Source: Sediminitomix flava (GTDB lineage: Bacteria; Bacteroidota; Bacteroidia; Cytophagales; Flammeovirgaceae). From it: DNA of 64,000 nt. The stretch covers positions 806,001 to 870,000 of the forward strand of contig NZ_QGDO01000001.1 in assembly GCF_003149185.1 (NCBI RefSeq), written 5' to 3'. Both the position numbers and the translations under genes were made by a program. Every line of letters begins with the position of its first letter. The stretch's first letter is position 1. Shown in pieces: positions 47,879-56,620 of this stretch. The notes beneath the pieces were generated by a model that saw nothing but the letters and a program-made list of their open reading frames with translations, was not told the origin of the DNA and did no database searches.

Positions 47879-49078
47879 TTAAATCTTTATGATTCCTTCA
47901 GAAATTTTTGTGTAAACTTTCTGAAAATTCAATATTCCCTTTGTGTGAAGTCTGATTTTTTCGCCTTTCGTTTCTAAAAAGCCTTCATTTTCCAAATATT
48001 TTAGAGGTGTAGGATCAACGCTAAATCCAGTATTTTCAAAAAATAATGAAAGATCAAGTTGCATACTTTCCAGAATACCTTTCAATCGTTCTTGTGCTAG
48101 CTTCAAATCATCTGTCACTTCTTTAACCATCATAGATGGAAAAAGACCTTCATTTACTTTTTCTCTAAAAGAGGCTAAATCGGGAGCATTGAAGCAGCGA
48201 AAATTTCCAATCTTTCCCCCTGCCCCACTTCCTAGAGGAATCATATCTCTATTTCCATAAGGAGTTCGAGTATATCTACATTCTTTTCCGTCTTTAGCGT
48301 AATTCTTGGTATTCCAATGTACATACCCTCCTTTCACGGCAGTTTCCATGGCTATGAGTTGCATCTCTTCTACCAACTTTTCTTCGGGTAGATTAACTTT
48401 CCCACTTTCGACCCTTTTCTTCAAAGGTGTATCTCCTAAAAGCTGTAACCTATATGATGACAAATTATCAACCCCAAAATCGATGGCAATTTCAATTTGT
48501 TCTTTTACATGATCTAATGTCTGGTTGGGTAATCCGTACATCAAATCTGTATTCAGAGTAAATCCTTCTTCTTGTATTTGATAAATGAGTTTTTTAATCT
48601 GATGAAAATCGGCTGGTCTCCCCAAAAGATTTCTGGTCTCTTTATCAAAAGCTTGAATACCCAAACTTATTCTATTCACTCCATACTTCTTTAGGAGCTT
48701 TAATTTTTCAAGATCAAGATGTCTAACGGTACTTTCAACTGTAAATTCATAGTCTGAAGAAAAACTTAGATACTTCGTCAAGTTTGCTAATATTGCTTCT
48801 AGCTGATGATTCTCTAAAACTGTTGGCGTACCTCCTCCAAAAAAGAAAACGTCAAAAGGTGCTTCTTGAAAGTAAGGAAGATGAAAATGATTTTGCATTT
48901 GCTTGACCACTAGCTCTGCATAATCAGATTGCTTGGCTGTAGTATATTTATAGAAAGGACAATAATTACATCTAGAAGCACAAAATGGGGTATGAAAATA
49001 CAATACTCGTTCTGCTTTTCTCGGACTGTTTTCAAACACATTTTCTAAAGAAACTGTGTCAACTTTAGTAGTCATCAT
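47879..49078 (-). CDS. HutW/ChuW-like radical SAM heme-utilisation enzyme
   Basis: A 399-residue radical SAM protein of the HemN/HemW superfamily. The cluster-binding cysteines are C33, C37 and C40 in FHTPFCASRCNYCPFYKY, and FFFGGGTPTVLE is the SAM-binding glycine motif. The YCPF form and the position at the end of a heme uptake locus point to HutW/ChuW, which opens the heme ring without oxygen (anaerobilin synthase) rather than the housekeeping chaperone HemW. This choice is inference; a HemW-like role or coproporphyrinogen dehydrogenase remains possible. A terminator lies between it and hmuY, so it may be expressed by read-through or from its own weak promoter. Confidence 0.72.
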   Translation of the reverse strand: MMTTKVDTVSLENVFENSPRKAERVLYFHTPFCASRCNYCPFYKYTTAKQSDYAELVVKQMQNHFHLPYFQEAPFDVFFFGGGTPTVLENHQLEAILANLTKYLSFSSDYEFTVESTVRHLDLEKLKLLKKYGVNRISLGIQAFDKETRNLLGRPADFHQIKKLIYQIQEEGFTLNTDLMYGLPNQTLDHVKEQIEIAIDFGVDNLSSYRLQLLGDTPLKKRVESGKVNLPEEKLVEEMQLIAMETAVKGGYVHWNTKNYAKDGKECRYTRTPYGNRDMIPLGSGAGGKIGNFRCFNAPDLASFREKVNEGLFPSMMVKEVTDDLKLAQERLKGILESMQLDLSLFFENTGFSVDPTPLKYLENEGFLETKGEKIRLHTKGILNFQKVYTKISEGIIKI

Positions 49079-49152
49079 AATCTAATGATTTTAGTCACTA
49101 TCGTTTATAAACAAAGAGAAGAAGAGAGCAAAGCCCCCTTCTTCAAGACACA

Positions 49153-49217
49153 TATAAAAAAGACAAAGATGAAGTAGACAAAAGCGCCATGCCTACTCTG
49201 ACAGGTTTTCATCTTTG
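49153..49217 (-). terminator. Probable terminator after hmuY
   Basis: On the minus strand CAAAGATGAA (complement of 49208-49217) pairs with TTCATCTTTG (complement of 49164-49173) and is followed by tctttttta. The loop is 34 bases, so termination may be partial, allowing read-through into the radical SAM gene. Confidence 0.55.
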
Positions 49218-49247
49218 ATTGTTCTACCTATTATTCATCGTTTAAAT

Positions 49248-50267
49248 CTACTGTAGTTCAGTATACTCAAACTGTTGATACCCACGCTCGCCTTCAGTAT
49301 TCAACATCGCTGTGATTCTCATTTTCACCACATTTCCATCTAAATCTTCAATCAAGTAAAATTGGTTTGGAGTAATCGTATAGGTGTACGTTGAGAAATC
49401 AAATACTCTCCAAGATGATCCAATTGTAGTTCTTGATGAAGAGAATTCTGGATTCAAAGTTTCTAAATCAACTTCTGTAAATGATGCGAAATCAACACTT
49501 GTTTCTAATTCATCAATCAAAGCAACTTTTACTCCTTGATTTTGGATGATGTAGTCCTTGTACGCTACTGCTACTCCTTCCTGACGAGCTGTTGTCTGAG
49601 TAAATGCAATATCCCAATCGCCTTTCGCAGGTTCTACTGACACTGCACCACTTTCAAATGACACATAAGAGAAATTATACATCGCATCTTTTTCTACTGT
49701 ATACATTTCTTGTGTATCAAAAGCATCTGTACTTGCAGTAATTACTTTATAGCCACCATTTTCTTGAAGCACTTGTACCAAAGCCCACGAAGTAGCTGAT
49801 GAATTTTGTTTGATCACAAAAATTTCATTGTCACTTGCAGTTGAGCTAATCGCAGGGATTGCAGTATCTGTTATAAACTCACTTGGATTATCTACATGAC
49901 CTTCCATTGTTTGGTAACCACCAGGAAGCATCGCTACTGCTGCCTCAATTGCTTCTGAAGTTAATTCTGACCAATCGTTTATCCCTGTAGTTGCTGCTTC
50001 AGCTCCAGCCGCGTAATTGATTTTAGCAACAAACTCACTTCCGTTAGATAAAGCTAAATCCCAAGAGTTATTTGCCACTCTTGTCGTCACAGAATCATTC
50101 AAGTTTATATATACCTGATGATCTTGAGCATCGCCACCCATATCTACATTTATAACTGCTCCAATCGGTTCTTCTACTTTAAATGTATCGTCTTCTGAAC
50201 ATGAAGAAAATGCTGTTGCTAAAAATGCTAGTCCGATAAAAGTTGATTGTAATCTCATGATTCTCAT
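49248..50267 (-). CDS. HmuY-family heme-binding lipoprotein with tandem HmuY-like units
   Basis: A 339-residue outer-membrane lipoprotein. The signal peptide ends in ATAFSSCSED, with the lipobox cysteine around residue 22. Two HmuY-like halves are visible: about 45-190 (with NNSWDLALSNGSEFVAKINY) and about 195-339 (with GDWDIAFTQTTARQEGVAVA and ITPNQFYLIEDLDGNVVKMR). The second half fits HmuY best. HmuY captures heme, also from host hemoproteins, and passes it to the TonB receptor. The known protein is about 216 residues, so this one is longer by an apparent duplication. The receptor gene ends 48 bases upstream; the two form a pair. Confidence 0.8.
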   Translation of the reverse strand: MRIMRLQSTFIGLAFLATAFSSCSEDDTFKVEEPIGAVINVDMGGDAQDHQVYINLNDSVTTRVANNSWDLALSNGSEFVAKINYAAGAEAATTGINDWSELTSEAIEAAVAMLPGGYQTMEGHVDNPSEFITDTAIPAISSTASDNEIFVIKQNSSATSWALVQVLQENGGYKVITASTDAFDTQEMYTVEKDAMYNFSYVSFESGAVSVEPAKGDWDIAFTQTTARQEGVAVAYKDYIIQNQGVKVALIDELETSVDFASFTEVDLETLNPEFSSSRTTIGSSWRVFDFSTYTYTITPNQFYLIEDLDGNVVKMRITAMLNTEGERGYQQFEYTELQ

Positions 50268-50315
50268 TTTATATTTGTTTTCTTGTATTTAGTATGAAGT
50301 TTTATCTATGCTTAT

Positions 50316-52556
50316 TTAATTTCTGAAGCTTGTGCTTAAGGCGTATGATAGCCTTAAAAAATATGACCTACCATAACTCACCTGACGGCTCCCTCCGCCA
50401 GAATGTGTACCACCTCCTCCACTTGCTCCAATTGTGGTCACATCTAGTAAGTTTTTGATACCACCCGTCAGTGAAAAACCTTTTGGCAATGCTTTTACTA
50501 AAGTCAGATCAACCCATTGATAAGGCTCTGTTTCTCCCATAAAAACATTTCCATCTTGATCTGAATAAGGGTCAAAACTTGCTCCTGTATATTTGAAAAA
50601 TAGAGAAGATCTTAAGCCAATTCTTTTGAAATTGTAACTAAGATTTGTGTTAAAGTCTGGAGTGTAGCTAAAGACATTAGATTGACTTTCATCCAATTGA
50701 TTTGTCACACCCATCAGGCCAAATCCTACCGTTAATCCAAACTTTTCACCAAAGAATGAGGCATTGGAATTGAAGCCAGTAGACTTCTGACTTAGTAAAT
50801 TAATGTTGTAGAAGTTACCACTACCATCAGCCGCCGCCGCAGTCGTGATCATATTCTCTAAATCCGTATAGTAGCTTGAAAGCTCTAGTTTTAGGTTATT
50901 CTTTTCTGAAATTTGATGCACATAGGTTAACCCTAACTGTACCGTATTGGATGTTTCTGGAATAAGGTCAGGATTGCCAAAAATATTATGGTTATCATCT
51001 ACAAAATTGTAGTAAAGGTCTTTCAGCTCAGGTGCTCTAAATCCTTTTCCATATCCAGCTCTCAAATTAAGATCTTCAGTAAGTTTATATTTTACATTCA
51101 ACTGCGGAATAAGCGGTGCATCAAAAAGAGAATTATTGATATATCTGATACCCGGCATAACTTTTAAGTTGTTGAACTTAAATTCTGTAACTGCATAAAC
51201 TCCTAAGTCAGAGATGCTACGTTCTCCATCAATTTTATCACCTGCTCCAGCTTCATGTACAAATTCATATCCCGCAGTTAAGGATAAGAGATCTCCTGAT
51301 TTTCTGAATTCAGTTTTGTGATTAAATGACTTAATCCAATCTTTTGTATACTCTTGAGCTAAAAACTCTTTAATACCAGAAATACCATTAACAGAGTAGG
51401 TTTTCTTTTCTCTTTCGAAATCTGTAAAAGCAAAAAATGTATGAAGACGAGTATCTTTATTGAATCTATATTCTGCCTGTAGATATTGCATTAATCTACT
51501 TGTTTCGTACTCGTCATCAATTGCATAAGCTTCTTGACCTACACCCTGTGGTTCACCCAAATCTCTAATGACTTCAGCCATATTATCTAGGCGATAAAAA
51601 ATATCCCATCGTTGAGAATTGTAACGAAGCAATCCGCCTGTTTGCAGTTGCTTTTTGGGTAACCATTCATGTCCTCTTTTTTCTAGAGCATCAGCTTTCC
51701 AACCATAAAATTGGTTATAAGCTAGGTCGGTCACCAAAGTAATTCTATCGGTTATTTGTGCACCTGCTCGAACAATTTGAGCTCTTTTCCCTTGATCTAA
51801 TCCATACTCAGAACCTACTGATTCTTCTTGCAATACCACATTTAGATTTAGATCATTGCTCAAAGATTTTTTGGTAATAATATTGATAACTCCAGCCAAT
51901 GCATCTGCCCCAAAACTCACTGCCATAGGCCCTTCAATAATCTCGATACGCTCAATGTTATTGACATTAACTTGCCCGAAGTCAACAGCGTTCTCAACTC
52001 CTACACCACCAGCCATCGGTACTCCATCCATCAATACTTTTACATATTTTGCTGACAAGCCCTGCATCGTAATATTGGAAGAACCAGTTGCCCCGTCTTG
52101 TTCAAAGCGAATATTGGTCATATTCTGAAGAACTGATTCTACACTTAAGGCTCCCATCTGCTGAATCTGAGAAGCTGAAACCGTTCTAATTTTATAAGTT
52201 GCATTACGAATAGATTGTGCCTCTGATAGACCTGTTACAACCACTTCGTCTAAACGAAAATCTTTGGGTTTTAGACGTATCGTTTTAGTCTCGTCAGATG
52301 GTATTGTTATTTGCTGTGCTTCATAATTAACATGATGTACAACAATGCTATATGCTTTAGCTATTTGGGGTAATTTTATTTTCCCTTTACGATCTGTGAA
52401 TAGACAGAATTCCTCTTTTGACCCTACAGCTTTCCCAGCTACAACAACTCCAACGATACGTTCTTCTGTATTGGCATCAATACATGTTACTTCTTGCGCC
52501 ATCAGAGTCGAAGTAATAATGAACAGTAAAGCTATGATGTTAAAAAGTACTTTCAT
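50316..52556 (-). CDS. TonB-dependent heme receptor (HmuR-like)
   Basis: A 746-residue outer-membrane receptor. A signal peptide (1-20) is followed by a CarboxypepD_reg-like domain (about 22-95), a plug (about 105-225, with NIRFEQDGATGSSNITMQGL) and a 22-strand barrel. The heme-receptor signature is clear: FRAP at 506-509, a histidine at 523 and NPDL at 528-531, as in HmuR/HemR, where these bind heme. It is the first gene of the receptor-hmuY unit. A copy of the 25-base shared motif (52593-52617) lies 37 bases upstream of the start and should control it. Confidence 0.9.
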   Translation of the reverse strand: MKVLFNIIALLFIITSTLMAQEVTCIDANTEERIVGVVVAGKAVGSKEEFCLFTDRKGKIKLPQIAKAYSIVVHHVNYEAQQITIPSDETKTIRLKPKDFRLDEVVVTGLSEAQSIRNATYKIRTVSASQIQQMGALSVESVLQNMTNIRFEQDGATGSSNITMQGLSAKYVKVLMDGVPMAGGVGVENAVDFGQVNVNNIERIEIIEGPMAVSFGADALAGVINIITKKSLSNDLNLNVVLQEESVGSEYGLDQGKRAQIVRAGAQITDRITLVTDLAYNQFYGWKADALEKRGHEWLPKKQLQTGGLLRYNSQRWDIFYRLDNMAEVIRDLGEPQGVGQEAYAIDDEYETSRLMQYLQAEYRFNKDTRLHTFFAFTDFEREKKTYSVNGISGIKEFLAQEYTKDWIKSFNHKTEFRKSGDLLSLTAGYEFVHEAGAGDKIDGERSISDLGVYAVTEFKFNNLKVMPGIRYINNSLFDAPLIPQLNVKYKLTEDLNLRAGYGKGFRAPELKDLYYNFVDDNHNIFGNPDLIPETSNTVQLGLTYVHQISEKNNLKLELSSYYTDLENMITTAAAADGSGNFYNINLLSQKSTGFNSNASFFGEKFGLTVGFGLMGVTNQLDESQSNVFSYTPDFNTNLSYNFKRIGLRSSLFFKYTGASFDPYSDQDGNVFMGETEPYQWVDLTLVKALPKGFSLTGGIKNLLDVTTIGASGGGGTHSGGGSRQVSYGRSYFLRLSYALSTSFRN

Positions 52557-52592
52557 GACTATTTATAGAGGTCTTAGTTTATTTATTTATTA

Positions 52593-52617
52593 TTAGACTT
52601 ATTCTAAATAATAAGTC
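52593..52617. promoter_or_regulatory. Shared 25-base motif, copy A (before the heme receptor)
   Basis: The 25-base site starts TTAGACTTATT and ends AAGTC; GACTTATT and AATAAGTC form a perfect 8-base dyad, and TTAGA-cttat-TCTAA a second, inner one. It is nearly identical to copies B and C before hmuT. It lies between the terminator of the hmuTUVS unit and the receptor start, and is a candidate site for an iron- or heme-responsive repressor. Confidence 0.7.
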
Positions 52618-52618
52618 A

Positions 52619-52652
52619 AATAAAAAGCACAGGCTTGGGGTACCTGTACTTT
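52619..52652 (-). terminator. Intrinsic terminator of the hmuTUVS unit
   Basis: On the minus strand AAAGTACAGG (complement of 52643-52652) pairs with CCTGTGCTTT (complement of 52624-52633) with one wobble, followed by ttatttg. It ends the transporter transcript before the receptor promoter. Confidence 0.75.
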
Positions 52653-52664
52653 TAGGGTATACAA

Positions 52665-53723
52665 TTAGATACGCTCGAAATTATCTACTAGCGTTCTCCA
52701 ATTCTCATCTTCTGCTTGACCAGGTTTACGTAAACCGAAGAACTGAACAATCAACTTATTGTCATGATCAAATACTTCGATTGAAGTTACATGTCCATCT
52801 TCTGTTGGTTTCTTTACAACCCAAGCCGTATTGATATGTTCTTCGTTCAAATGCATGTTGAACTTAGGGTCCATGATATTTAACCAGTTACCCATAACCA
52901 ATACACGTTTCACTACATCTTGATGAATCTGAATGTTACCACGGCTACTTGCAAAAATCATGATTGGAAGCTCAGTTTCTGCTGCTTGCTCCAATAAATC
53001 TTTCAAGTTTACAGGGTCTATTTTGTATGTAAATTCACCTTTTACCAATTCGCAAGCATCGTATCTGTCAGCTTTATATTTACGGATCATTCCAAAGAAT
53101 TGGTGTGTGTCTTTCAACTCTCTCCAAGATTGTGTAAACTCTTCTTTGTCAATATCATGGATTGGCGTAGTTGACATGGGTTTGTAAGCTTCATAAGCCT
53201 GTACATCAGACTGATCTTCTGAGGTAAAATCAGCTACAAGCTTATCAAATGCCGCAATATCAGTATTTTCCTTCTTGTAAATTTTAATGACTGAATCCCC
53301 TTCTTTGTCATAGATATGAATACTCTCAGAGAATCCTTTTTTACTCTCTTGCTTCACAAAGAAACCTACAGCCCAATATTGCAAGAACATTCTTGTTTCA
53401 ATAGGACCAATAGAAAGTCCAGTACTACCATCAGGCATTACGTTCGTTTTTCCAAAATCACCTTTATGCTCAAGTACACAAGCTTCATTTCGTGTAATAC
53501 TCAATACCTCCTTCAATTCTGGTAAACGTTTTACAAAGTCAGCCCAATCCCCCGACAAACGAGTTACTTCACCATTTCCAATTTTTGATGCTAAAAGCTC
53601 AGCCTCAGAAACTCCAAGTTTTGTGGCAATATCACGAGGAAATATTCGCTTTCCTTCCGTATCAAAATTAGTCCAAGCTTCCAAAAGCTCTTTACCCTGT
53701 AGTCTTTGTGTACTAGTTGTCAT
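52665..53723 (-). CDS. HemS/ChuS-like hemin-degrading or heme-carrier protein
   Basis: A 352-residue cytoplasmic protein of the HemS/ChuS/ShuS family, the usual length (about 345) with two structurally repeated halves. N-terminal LQGKELLEAWTNFDTEGKRI and SITRNEACVLEHKGDFGKTN match the first half, and VLVMGNWLNIMDPKFNMHLN the second. These proteins receive heme from the importer and either degrade or store it. This is not the CobN-like HmuS of Porphyromonas/Bacteroides hmu loci, so the name hmuS is avoided. An in-frame ATG at 53816 overlaps hmuV and lacks conservation; ATG at 53723, 41 bases after hmuV, is preferred. Confidence 0.87.
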   Translation of the reverse strand: MTTSTQRLQGKELLEAWTNFDTEGKRIFPRDIATKLGVSEAELLASKIGNGEVTRLSGDWADFVKRLPELKEVLSITRNEACVLEHKGDFGKTNVMPDGSTGLSIGPIETRMFLQYWAVGFFVKQESKKGFSESIHIYDKEGDSVIKIYKKENTDIAAFDKLVADFTSEDQSDVQAYEAYKPMSTTPIHDIDKEEFTQSWRELKDTHQFFGMIRKYKADRYDACELVKGEFTYKIDPVNLKDLLEQAAETELPIMIFASSRGNIQIHQDVVKRVLVMGNWLNIMDPKFNMHLNEEHINTAWVVKKPTEDGHVTSIEVFDHDNKLIVQFFGLRKPGQAEDENWRTLVDNFERI

Positions 53724-53764
53724 ATCTATATATGTATCGTTTTTAATTCTATTATTATAATTTG

Positions 53765-54562
53765 CTAAGCTGTCCATTGTCTTGCATGAGCTGAATCTGC
53801 CACCACAAAAGGACAATCAGTATCCGCACATTTCAGCATTCGTACAGGATGAGAAAACGTTTTCTCAATCACCCATGCCTTAAACACTTTTTCAACTTCT
53901 CCTTGAGCTACTTCTTTTCCATTTTTTATAAAAAGCATTCGGTCTGAGAATTGAGCAGCCACATTGAGGTCATGAACAATAGCTAATACGCCAATATGAT
54001 CTCCGCATAGTTTTTTCACTAATTCAAACACTTGTTGTTGTTGAATGATGTCCATGTTGGAAGTAGGCTCATCCAGAAAAAGGTATTTGGGAGCATCATC
54101 TTCATCCCAAAGTTGGGTTAAAGCTCTAGCCAATTGTACACGCTGTTGTTCACCGCCCGAAAGACTACTAAATACTCTATCTTTAAACTGATAGGTATTT
54201 GTTTTATCCATCATTTCTGCGGCTAATTCCTTATCTCTTTTTACGCCTGTTGAATAAGGAAGTCGTCCCATCATTACCACCTCGTCTACGGTGTAAGGAA
54301 AACTCAACTGAAAATTTTGAGAAAGAACAGCCCGCTTTTTTGCTAAATCAGTTACCTTAAAGTCATTGATTCCTTTCTGATCAAAAGAAATTTGCCCTTC
54401 AGATAATGGTGTATCTCCTGTAAGAATCTTCAACAAAGTGGATTTACCCGCACCATTGGCTCCCAACACAGATAATAACTCTCCTGGCTTGACCTCTAGA
54501 TTTAAATCGGATAGAATCTGATTTCCTCTGATCTGATGATGAATATGTTTTGCTGACAGCAT
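53765..54562 (-). CDS. hmuV: Hemin ABC transporter ATP-binding protein HmuV
   Basis: A 265-residue cytoplasmic ATPase. Walker A reads GANGAGKSTLLKIL, the signature LSGGEQQRVQLARAL and Walker B YLFLDEPTSNMD, followed by the H-loop in AIVHDLNVAAQFSD. The sequence and context match HmuV, which drives heme import with HmuU and HmuT. It begins one base after the hmuU stop, so the genes are translationally coupled. The C-terminus (CADTDCPFVVADSAHARQ) is a short extension seen in heme-specific members. Confidence 0.92.
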   Translation of the reverse strand: MLSAKHIHHQIRGNQILSDLNLEVKPGELLSVLGANGAGKSTLLKILTGDTPLSEGQISFDQKGINDFKVTDLAKKRAVLSQNFQLSFPYTVDEVVMMGRLPYSTGVKRDKELAAEMMDKTNTYQFKDRVFSSLSGGEQQRVQLARALTQLWDEDDAPKYLFLDEPTSNMDIIQQQQVFELVKKLCGDHIGVLAIVHDLNVAAQFSDRMLFIKNGKEVAQGEVEKVFKAWVIEKTFSHPVRMLKCADTDCPFVVADSAHARQWTA

Positions 54563-54563
54563 A

Positions 54564-55646
54564 TTAAGCGATATTTTTTGCTTTCCTTAAAAGATAAATA
54601 AAGAATGGAGCACCTAGCAATGAGGTAACAATACCTATTGGTAATTCTGAAGGGCTTACGATGACTCTCGAAACCGTGTCTGATAAAATCAACAGCGCTG
54701 CTCCTCCGAGCATTGAACCTGTAAGTACGGTTTTATGAGAAGCTCCAAAGATTGTTCTTACCATATGAGGTACTACCAAACCGATAAATCCTATAATTCC
54801 AGAAAGTGCGACTGCTGCCCCGACAGAAAGAGCTACCAAACACACCACAATTAGCTTCACTCTTTCTACATCAACTCCCAAGTACCTCGCTTCAGATTCT
54901 CCGAGTGCCATTGCATCTAAATCTTTAGCATATTTCAGTATATAAAGACTTGAAACAAACATAATTGGCCCTGCTAAGTAAAAATCTGACCATCTAGCTC
55001 CAGACAAATCACCCATACTCCAAAATGTAAAACTTCGAAGTTGTGTGTCATCAGCACTATAAACTACCAAACCAATGATTGCACCGATCAAAGCATTGAT
55101 TGCAACCCCTGCCAAAATGAGGATAGAAACCTGCGTACCATTGTTCATTTTAGCTAATCGGTAAACTGCAAAAGTCACTAGCATACCGCCCAAAAAGGCT
55201 CCGAATGGTAGCATATAAGTACCTAGCTTATCTATAAATTCAAATGGTAAATACAGTTTGAAAACCATAATAAGGATTGCAAAAAGTGCTGCGCCACTTG
55301 ACACCCCAACCAAACCTGGTTCAACCAAAGGATTTCGGAAAAGACCTTGCATTGAAGCTCCAGAAACAGCCAAGCTCATTCCAACTAATCCACCAAGTAG
55401 TACTCTTGGCATTCGAAGATTAAAAAGAACGATAGCTTGTCTATCCTCAAAGTTTCCTTCAATTATACCAGCCGAAATTTTCTCTAATAGAATAGCTACA
55501 ACTTCTGAAATGGAAATTTCTACTGCTCCAATCGTAAGTGAAATACAAACTGAAATCACCAATAGCCCCCCGAGTCCTACAACTACATTGATATTCTTGA
55601 GGGCATCAGAACACTTGCTTAAAAAACTGCTCTTCTGCTTACTCAT
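54564..55646 (-). CDS. hmuU: Hemin ABC transporter permease HmuU
   Basis: A 360-residue inner-membrane permease of the FecCD/BtuC family with about nine to ten helices. Typical segments are LFNLRMPRVLLGGLVGMSLA, SGASMQGLFRNPLVEPGLVG and IIGFIGLVVPHMVRTIFGAS near the end. It forms the heme channel of the HmuTUV importer. It lies three bases after hmuT and one base before hmuV. Confidence 0.92.
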   Translation of the reverse strand: MSKQKSSFLSKCSDALKNINVVVGLGGLLVISVCISLTIGAVEISISEVVAILLEKISAGIIEGNFEDRQAIVLFNLRMPRVLLGGLVGMSLAVSGASMQGLFRNPLVEPGLVGVSSGAALFAILIMVFKLYLPFEFIDKLGTYMLPFGAFLGGMLVTFAVYRLAKMNNGTQVSILILAGVAINALIGAIIGLVVYSADDTQLRSFTFWSMGDLSGARWSDFYLAGPIMFVSSLYILKYAKDLDAMALGESEARYLGVDVERVKLIVVCLVALSVGAAVALSGIIGFIGLVVPHMVRTIFGASHKTVLTGSMLGGAALLILSDTVSRVIVSPSELPIGIVTSLLGAPFFIYLLRKAKNIA

Positions 55647-55649
55647 CTT

Positions 55650-56528
55650 TTATTGTATTGTTTGAAGTTTTGTCGCTAACTCTTGGATTGCTTCGCCAAT
55701 TCTTGGACCGAAACCTGAAACAAAAGCACCATCCATCGCTATGATTTGTTTTTTCTTCCCAGCCGTAGTCTCTGCCACACCAGGGATAGTGAGCACACCT
55801 TCCATTCCTCCTAGACTTTCCAAACCAGACTCAAAGAACATTAGATAATCAGGATTTGCAGCAATCAATGCTTCAGGAGTCAATTTCTTATATCCGACTA
55901 CATCAGTCACTGCCAACTCAGCTCCTGCAAGTGCTAAAATCTCTTCTGCAAAAGTTTCTTTCCCTAGAATATGCATTGCTCCTCGTCCTCTTGCATAGAC
56001 CATCAATACTTTAGGTTTTTGAGCTTTTTCATTTGAAGCTAGAACAGGCGTACTAGTTTTCACTTTTTCAATCAACTGAGCTCCCTTTTCTTCTACTTTT
56101 AGTTCTTGGGCTACTTGTCCGATCAATTCATACAATTGATTGACTGATTTCTCTTTTGAATAGGTAATTATATTGATTCCAGCTTCTTGCAATTGAGCAA
56201 TTACTTCTGCTTTCATTCCTTCTTCTGCCACCCAAACCTGATCTGGATTATGGGCTAAAATGCCTTCAGCGCTAATTTTTGAGACATGTCCAATTACAGC
56301 AGACTTCAATACTTCTTCTGGATATGTACTTGTAATATCTCTAGCAACTATCTGATTTGCAAACCCTAGCGCAGCAATTACTTCAGTCACTTGACCTCCA
56401 ATACTTACGATACGAACATTTTGTTCACCGTCAACCTGCTCATTAGTTTTTTCTGAAGTTTTAGCCGAACAAGACACTACTAGTATTGCGATTAGGCTAA
56501 CTAATATTGAAAAAATGGTCTTTTGCAT
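55650..56528 (-). CDS. hmuT: Hemin-binding periplasmic lipoprotein HmuT
   Basis: A 292-residue substrate-binding protein of the BtuF/HmuT class. The signal peptide ends in a lipobox, IAILVVSCSAK. The TroA-like fold shows VSIGGQVTEVIAALGFANQI near the start, VWVAEEGMKAEVIAQLQEAG in the middle and AFVSGFGPRIGEAIQELATK at the end. It delivers heme to HmuU. First gene of the hmuTUV-hemS unit; two copies of a shared 25-base motif precede it. Confidence 0.9.
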   Translation of the reverse strand: MQKTIFSILVSLIAILVVSCSAKTSEKTNEQVDGEQNVRIVSIGGQVTEVIAALGFANQIVARDITSTYPEEVLKSAVIGHVSKISAEGILAHNPDQVWVAEEGMKAEVIAQLQEAGINIITYSKEKSVNQLYELIGQVAQELKVEEKGAQLIEKVKTSTPVLASNEKAQKPKVLMVYARGRGAMHILGKETFAEEILALAGAELAVTDVVGYKKLTPEALIAANPDYLMFFESGLESLGGMEGVLTIPGVAETTAGKKKQIIAMDGAFVSGFGPRIGEAIQELATKLQTIQ

Positions 56529-56554
56529 ATCTATAACTGTTTACTTCTTCTTAT

Positions 56555-56579
56555 TTGGACTTATTTTAAATAACTAAGG
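56555..56579. promoter_or_regulatory. Shared 25-base motif, copy B (before hmuT)
   Basis: The site starts TTGGACTTATT and ends TAAGG, matching copy A at most of its positions. It is 27 bases upstream of the hmuT ATG. Confidence 0.65.
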
Positions 56580-56595
56580 CAAATATTATATTTAT

Positions 56596-56620
56596 TTAGA
56601 CCTATTACAAATAATAAACC
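56596..56620. promoter_or_regulatory. Shared 25-base motif, copy C (before hmuT)
   Basis: The site starts TTAGACCTATT and ends AAACC. It begins 41 bases after copy B begins, close to four helical turns, so two bound dimers could act on the same DNA face. Confidence 0.65.

Follow-up and report, generated by a model that had tools for sequence, protein, structure and literature searches.

In the bacterium Sediminitomix flava, seven open reading frames (ORFs) form a locus that joins heme capture of the HmuY type to a HemS protein and to a radical S-adenosylmethionine (SAM) protein (rSAM) which, judged from its sequence, is a deep-branching ChuW/HutW/HmuW-side protein and not a HemW. The ORFs span positions 47879-56528, all on the minus strand, of a 64,000-nucleotide stretch of contig NZ_QGDO01000001.1 (hereafter the window). 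ChuW, HutW, and HmuW break the heme ring anaerobically, and HemS acts in the cytoplasm. We consider it fairly probable (about 0.62) that this is an iron-starvation heme locus, with import through HmuY, a TonB-dependent receptor, and an ABC transporter, HemS as the acceptor, and the rSAM as an anaerobic ring opener. A first-pass annotation, made from the DNA letters alone, had proposed this joining of HmuY capture, HemS, and a HutW-side enzyme, and our analysis supports it.

The NCBIfam model that the rSAM matches best is TIGR04107 (ChuW/HutW, 251 bits), followed by the HemW model (203 bits, cut-off 205). In trees of 57 and 79 proteins, it groups with the ChuW/HutW/HmuW side, apart from HemW, with supports of 99/96 and 100/99, respectively, and constraining it into the HemW clade is rejected by the approximately unbiased (AU) test (p = 0.0039). 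Trees and AU test thus refute a HemW identity, in line with the first-pass annotation, which had called the protein HutW/ChuW-like. Three alignment columns are at least 95% uniform in both families and differ between them, and the rSAM is HutW-like in all three (R149, Y269, and G287). It does not contain HN..YW, a string that all 21 HemW rows share, and it carries GxGAGG, which is present in 42/54 HutW/HmuW rows and 0/21 HemW rows. The CX3CX2C cluster motif is present, identity to E. coli ChuW is 26%, and the PDB fold closest to the AlphaFold model (pLDDT 91) is that of E. coli HemN (1olt, TM 0.82).

This fold match, a HemW score barely below the cut-off, and a mixed picture in less strictly chosen diagnostic columns (see below) would suit a HemW-like heme chaperone or a HemN-like coproporphyrinogen oxidase paralogue, which would insert or make heme instead of degrading it. 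We regard such a function as quite unlikely, given the AU result, the missing HN..YW string, and the lack of a match to the HemN_C domain, which is present in the HemW of the same genome. The genome encodes this HemW (308 bits on the HemW model, 208 on the HutW model) as well as a HemN (453 bits on the HemN model) and a ferrochelatase; because its own HemW and HemN are present, the rSAM would be superfluous for their jobs.

Several observations weigh against a ring-opening rSAM. Its TIGR04107 score stays under the cut-off of 400 bits, which denies it membership by score. Its exact place is unstable: it stands beside HmuW in the 57-protein tree, weakly (88/29) and with a long-branch warning, and is basal on the HutW side in the 79-protein tree, where the remaining members are held together at 98/84. 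The rSAM branch is long and is among those of which the tree program warns. In 17 looser diagnostic columns, it is HutW-like in 4 and HemW-like in 3. No close orthologue was found in the order and family samples or in a contig scan with the single protein. The gene is set apart from the HmuY gene by 169 bp and a terminator-like hairpin. Finally, there are no HutX, ChuY, or HmuF-like genes among the listed neighbours of the locus.

In the same 17 columns, seven rows of the HmuW clade are HutW-like in 4-8 and HemW-like in 2-3, the corresponding numbers for E. coli ChuW being 17 and 0. The HmuW of Fusobacterium vincentii scores 211-213 bits on TIGR04107, below the rSAM of the window, and since this HmuW (213 bits) also fails, the 400-bit cut-off is not decisive. 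Its gene sits in a T-R-U-V-W run, and we took the next short ORF as the flavodoxin HmuF by eye; the run resembles the hmu operon of F. nucleatum (hmuTRUVWF), for which a passage of PMC10404700 reports that HmuW makes anaerobilin. The TIGR04107 score as sole judge was dropped, since HemW rows of Bacteroidota (225-238 bits) score above an HmuW (213 bits).

The rSAM gene is the rare part of the locus, the combination of HmuY, receptor, and HemS recurring elsewhere. In the order sample (390 genomes), no other match comes near its score, the next best (148 bits, genome G533) being a HemW in both trees, and among 18 genomes of the family, the 17 others of which also belong to the order sample, a match at E 1e-42 occurs in S. 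flava alone; the samples include no second genome of the genus. Of 395 genomes sampled across the phylum, 19 besides that of S. flava reach E <=1e-66 on TIGR04107, and 19/19 fall in the HemW clade of the 57-protein tree. The single-protein scan of the contigs of named genomes returned no relative. From an alignment-based scan of named genomes we used the best 80 of 542 matches, at least three of which are HemW. One of these 80 is from Bacteroidota, a Prolixibacteraceae metagenome-assembled genome (MAG) whose HutW-side rSAM (L245:3251-4531) scores 285 bits on TIGR04107 and has no heme gene recognised within its 10 kb. An HmuU-type permease of at least 150 bits lies in 26 of the 80 flanks, indicating that HutW-side genes are often in heme loci. 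We saw no sign of recent transfer of the rSAM gene in its base composition (GC 34.8% versus 35.5% for the window).

The restriction to one genome in the family and order samples, the gap and hairpin before the gene, and the second of two PDB sequence matches, the radical SAM methyltransferase NocN (84 bits), could also point to a class C radical methyltransferase with another substrate, expressed separately and lying beside heme genes by chance. Against this, the gene is on the same strand as the heme operon and lies at its end, a position nearly shared by HmuW in Fusobacterium; the top single-piece bit score among the 40 plasmid matches listed (177 bits) is that of a gene from Rahnella with a ChuW/HutW annotation; and the trees, NocN itself being outside them, group the rSAM with HutW/HmuW. 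We therefore judge a methyltransferase unlikely.

The features of the locus are collected in Table 1. In gene order (substrate-binding protein (SBP), permease, ATPase, HemS, TonB receptor, HmuY, rSAM), the intergenic gaps are 3, 1, 41, 108, 48, and 169 bp. The HemS ORF as listed begins within the ATPase gene; the methionine at 53723, which gives the 41-bp gap, is the likelier true start. Curated models and ORF positions confirm the gene families and locus content named in the first-pass annotation, and the FRAP and NPDL strings it reported are both present in the receptor translation. The HmuY assignment has a PF14064 score above the cut-off and an adjoining HmuR-like receptor behind it; against the PDB, this HmuY gave weak matches only, and heme-ligand residues differ among members of the HmuY family, as described in part of PMC9331221. 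ABC genes are part of the locus, as proposed under the name HmuTUV; however, a passage of PMC13227078 describes the HmuTUV of Bacteroidota as different, non-ABC proteins, and the trio of the window is of the Yersinia HmuTUV/HemTUV kind, after which we name it. No CobN-like gene was found among the ORFs of the locus, and neither Rfam at its gathering threshold nor a tRNA scan gave a match in the window.

Table 1 Features of the heme locus in the window.
Feature	Position	Strand	Evidence
HmuT/HemT-like heme substrate-binding lipoprotein (SBP)	55650..56528	-	PF01497 86 bits; IsdE and BtuF NCBIfam matches under cut-off
HmuU/HemU-like FecCD permease	54564..55646	-	PF01032 329 bits
HmuV/HemV heme ABC ATPase	53765..54562	-	NF010068 (heme ABC ATPase) 299 bits (cut-off 261)
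HemS/ChuS family protein	52665..53723	-	PF05171 215 bits (two stretches); PF06228 165 bits; 4mf9 E 1.9e-74
HmuR-like TonB-dependent heme receptor	50316..52556	-	PF00593, PF07715; FRAP...NPDL strings; TIGR01785/TIGR01786 under cut-off
HmuY-family lipoprotein, about twice the Pfam domain length	49248..50267	-	PF14064 55.7 bits (cut-off 27), two stretches
HutW/HmuW-side radical SAM protein (rSAM)	47879..49078	-	TIGR04107 251 bits (cut-off 400); trees, AU test, AlphaFold model
Operator-like palindrome, copy 1, 5' of SBP gene	56592..56614	-	0 mismatches to TTATTTNNAATNNRTCYAAATWA, pattern partly derived from this site
Operator-like palindrome, copy 2	56551..56573	-	0 mismatches to TTATTTNNAATNNRTCYAAATWA, pattern partly derived from this site
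Weaker operator-like site 5' of receptor gene	52589..52611	-	three mismatches
Terminator-like hairpin between HemS and receptor genes	52623..52653	-	hairpin scan (6 sites of this kind versus 4.4 expected in shuffles)
Terminator-like hairpin between HmuY and rSAM genes	49118..49144	-	12 pairs; fold z-score -5.0 for 49100-49160

The genome comprises 6.6 Mb in 39 contigs, the window lying on contig C1. A search of it for the CobN family gave one gene (two matched stretches in a single open frame), on contig C3. In order, this region holds a TonB receptor, an HmuY (PF14064, 81 bits), the CobN-type protein of 1575 aa, a 231-aa protein, a MotA/ExbB-like protein, and a 109-aa ORF (L036:5614-15423), with an AraC-type regulator gene at L036:3248-3841. 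The layout is that of the six-gene hmu operon in the relevant passage of PMC12583661, except that the receptor and HmuY genes are swapped; the 231-aa and 109-aa products were taken as HmuT and HmuV from position only. The 1575-aa protein matches the solved HmuS de-chelatase 9d26 with 1339 bits, compared with at most 399 for ChlH and at most 348 for CobN, and is thus nearer to HmuS than to either, inside an hmu operon. By these sequence matches, the gene is an HmuS in a classical six-gene hmu operon, and S. flava has two heme systems, this operon and the locus of the window. According to part of the same report, HmuS was shown in 2025 to take iron out of heme in one member of the gut Bacteroidota (PMC12583661).

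These data bear on the proposal of the first-pass annotation that HmuS is absent and that HemS and HutW stand in for it. The absence holds for the locus alone; the replacement is contradicted for S. flava by the six-gene operon in the same genome, and we consider it very improbable there. The annotation had also named an HmuS acting with the locus from elsewhere in the genome as a finding that would speak against it: an HmuS is present, and we saw no sign of joint action. Two other HemS-bearing family members (G456 and G482) likewise hold HmuS pieces with 66-75% identity, the HemS-bearing G439 and G471 being outside that search. Replacement may be true in other HmuY+HemS genomes, because among 15 of them 14 gave no HmuS-like match at E 1e-50, and the sole match in the fifteenth (G573) was a CobN-like protein with 33% identity. 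In a search of two family members that lack HemS, G477 gave no HmuS match and G323 a CobN-like match at 31%.

The HemS assignment is based on its domains, on full-length alignment to HemS/ChuS structures (hemin-degrading factors of the PDB match at 254 bits), and on a putative heme-ligand histidine. ChuS R100 and H193, which we take to be functionally important residues, the latter the heme ligand, are conserved as R142 and H238 in the numbering of the listed ORF. In a tree of 70 HemS proteins built by a quick method, the window's HemS belongs to a starred clade made up of 19 Bacteroidota rows, its nearest neighbour being that of locus L078 (49% identity), and E. coli ChuS and Yersinia HemS group separately from it, among other rows; the tree gives no direction of transfer between phyla. 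The first-pass term "proteobacterial-type HemS" is therefore replaced by a Bacteroidota-clade HemS. Its further suggestion that heme iron is used both with and without oxygen leaned on HemS requiring oxygen, and it is weakened by a report, in a passage of PMC13227078 citing Keith et al. 2024, that Yersinia HemS/HmuS degrades heme anaerobically with NADH.

HemS (PF05171) occurs in 30/295 genomes of the class and 60/291 of the order, the S. flava genome counted. We read 60 HemS neighbourhoods, of which the order contributed 40 and the remainder of the class 20; some end at contig edges. They were scored by phmmer with the window proteins (HmuY threshold at least 70 bits). HmuY and HmuR-like ORFs lie beside HemS in 15 of the 60, and 14 of these, all except L121, have ABC genes too; in L092 and L103, the HmuY matches are weak only. 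HmuY ORFs taken one each from 8 of the 15 loci all pass Pfam (8/8; for L078, the weaker of its two was used). None of the 60 contains an ORF with HutW as its best match. In L078, an HmuY between HemS and the receptor (L078:9222-10520) has a C-terminal match to a T9SS sorting domain (PF18962, 27.2 bits, cut-off 27).

The palindromes of Table 1 follow a 23-bp pattern that was derived from the window and its relatives L068 and L070; these and L036 were excluded from the count. Promoter regions comprised at most 300 bp 5' of SBP and receptor genes, divergent intergenic regions being counted from either side. At no more than two mismatches, the pattern occurs in 34/87 other promoter regions (31/46 loci), compared with 0.03 on average, and never more than 1, in mononucleotide shuffles. 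The palindrome stands 5' of heme genes at many loci among L071-L109 of the order. On both strands of the S. flava genome, there are 33 matches at this threshold versus 9 for a reversed control. At nine loci with such sites, we identified as neighbours a PepSY protein, two TonB receptors, a DUF4856 protein, an imelysin-type protein, and a HutZ-like protein, the remaining neighbours (e.g. respiratory-chain genes, an uncharacterised membrane protein) being named by eye or unnamed. The HutZ-like protein (L302:968-1477, contig C3; TIGR04110 122 bits, cut-off 225) lies just 3' of its site and may take part in breaking down heme. In the classical hmu operon, no site at up to four mismatches was found 5' of the receptor gene. 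The sites fit a putative iron regulon, and we found no paper on a regulator of the 23-bp operator. Because the weaker site and a hairpin precede the receptor gene, the locus may give two transcripts.

In the function that we propose, HmuY would take up heme at the cell surface and pass it to the TonB receptor, and the SBP lipoprotein with the ABC permease and ATPase would carry it to the cytoplasm. There, HemS would be the acceptor, possibly degrading heme itself, and may hand heme over to the rSAM, which would open the ring without oxygen and release Fe2+. The classical hmu operon with its HmuS de-chelatase would be the second heme system of the cell. The locus most likely serves iron, since the ferrochelatase and HemN genes indicate that the cell may make its own heme. 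A less probable reading is that the rSAM forms a lineage of its own, the third among enzymes that open tetrapyrroles and the sister group of ChuW/HutW and HmuW together, in a cell that switches four heme-iron release families (rSAM, HemS, the operator-linked HutZ-like protein, and HmuS) by oxygen and iron. A genome with HmuS, HutW-side, and HemS members would allow a test of why de-chelation, in which the porphyrin is saved, coexists with ring opening, in which it is lost. The deep-branching rSAM offers a point near the HutW/HemW split for studying the origin of ring opening, and the operator-like sites a handle on the control of heme uptake in the order.

Enterobacterial chu/hmu loci (Yersinia, E. 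coli) resemble the locus of the window in holding HemS, SBP, permease, ATPase, TonB receptor, and a ChuW/HutW-side rSAM together; among the best 80 of 542 matches, HemS and HutW accompany the ABC genes in flanks from Yersinia (six) and E. coli (one). The window differs from them in its HmuY, its HemS of the Bacteroidota clade, its distant rSAM, and the lack of a ChuX or ChuY gene among its neighbours. The F. nucleatum operon, as described in the available part of PMC10404700, similarly has its rSAM gene close to the end of a run of T-R-U-V heme genes, whereas HmuF adjoins HmuW there and HemS and HmuY are unmatched in the F. vincentii stretch. Bacteroidota HmuY-HmuR-HemS loci (e.g. L089, L095, L101, L102, and L105) share HmuY, receptor, HemS, and mostly the ABC genes with the window, but have no ORF with HutW as best match.

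HmuY and HmuR are also common to the hmuYRSTUV operons of Bacteroides and Porphyromonas, as outlined in passages of PMC12583661 and PMC13227078; unlike these, the locus has no HmuS and has ABC import, HemS, and the rSAM, an operon of their type being that on contig C3. An HmuY-like protein and receptor without HmuS are already published for hfpRY of Flavobacterium psychrophilum, for which the pertinent part of PMC9331221 reports only these two genes and makes no mention of HemS or an rSAM. In an Elizabethkingia genome, hmuY lies in an iron gene cluster, and a separate hemin cluster contains a hemin-degrading protein, ABC genes, and "SAM-dependent methyltransferases" of a kind unstated in that passage (PMC5602931). 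In the literature searched, mostly open access, we found no paper describing a HutW-type gene within an HmuY locus.

Some further loci were seen in passing. By annotation, plasmid p74 of Leptospira biflexa (L291:1-5041) carries HmuY, ABC genes, and a hemin-degrading factor (HemS) together. In an Opitutales MAG (L218:895-9170), ABC heme genes occur together with a HutW-side rSAM, an ORF that matches HemS weakly (70 bits), and another that is receptor-like by eye. On an IncC plasmid of Xenorhabdus, a gene named hutW (L193:4875-6284) lies beside speF and pairs with a Cytobacillus rSAM on long branches, and its name is possibly wrong. Plasmid pNR1418-2 of Providencia rettgeri (L159:849-9134) bears a hut locus with genes for a receptor, SBP, HutW, HutX, anaerobilin reductase, permease, and ATPase, adjoining an ISCR1 transposase.

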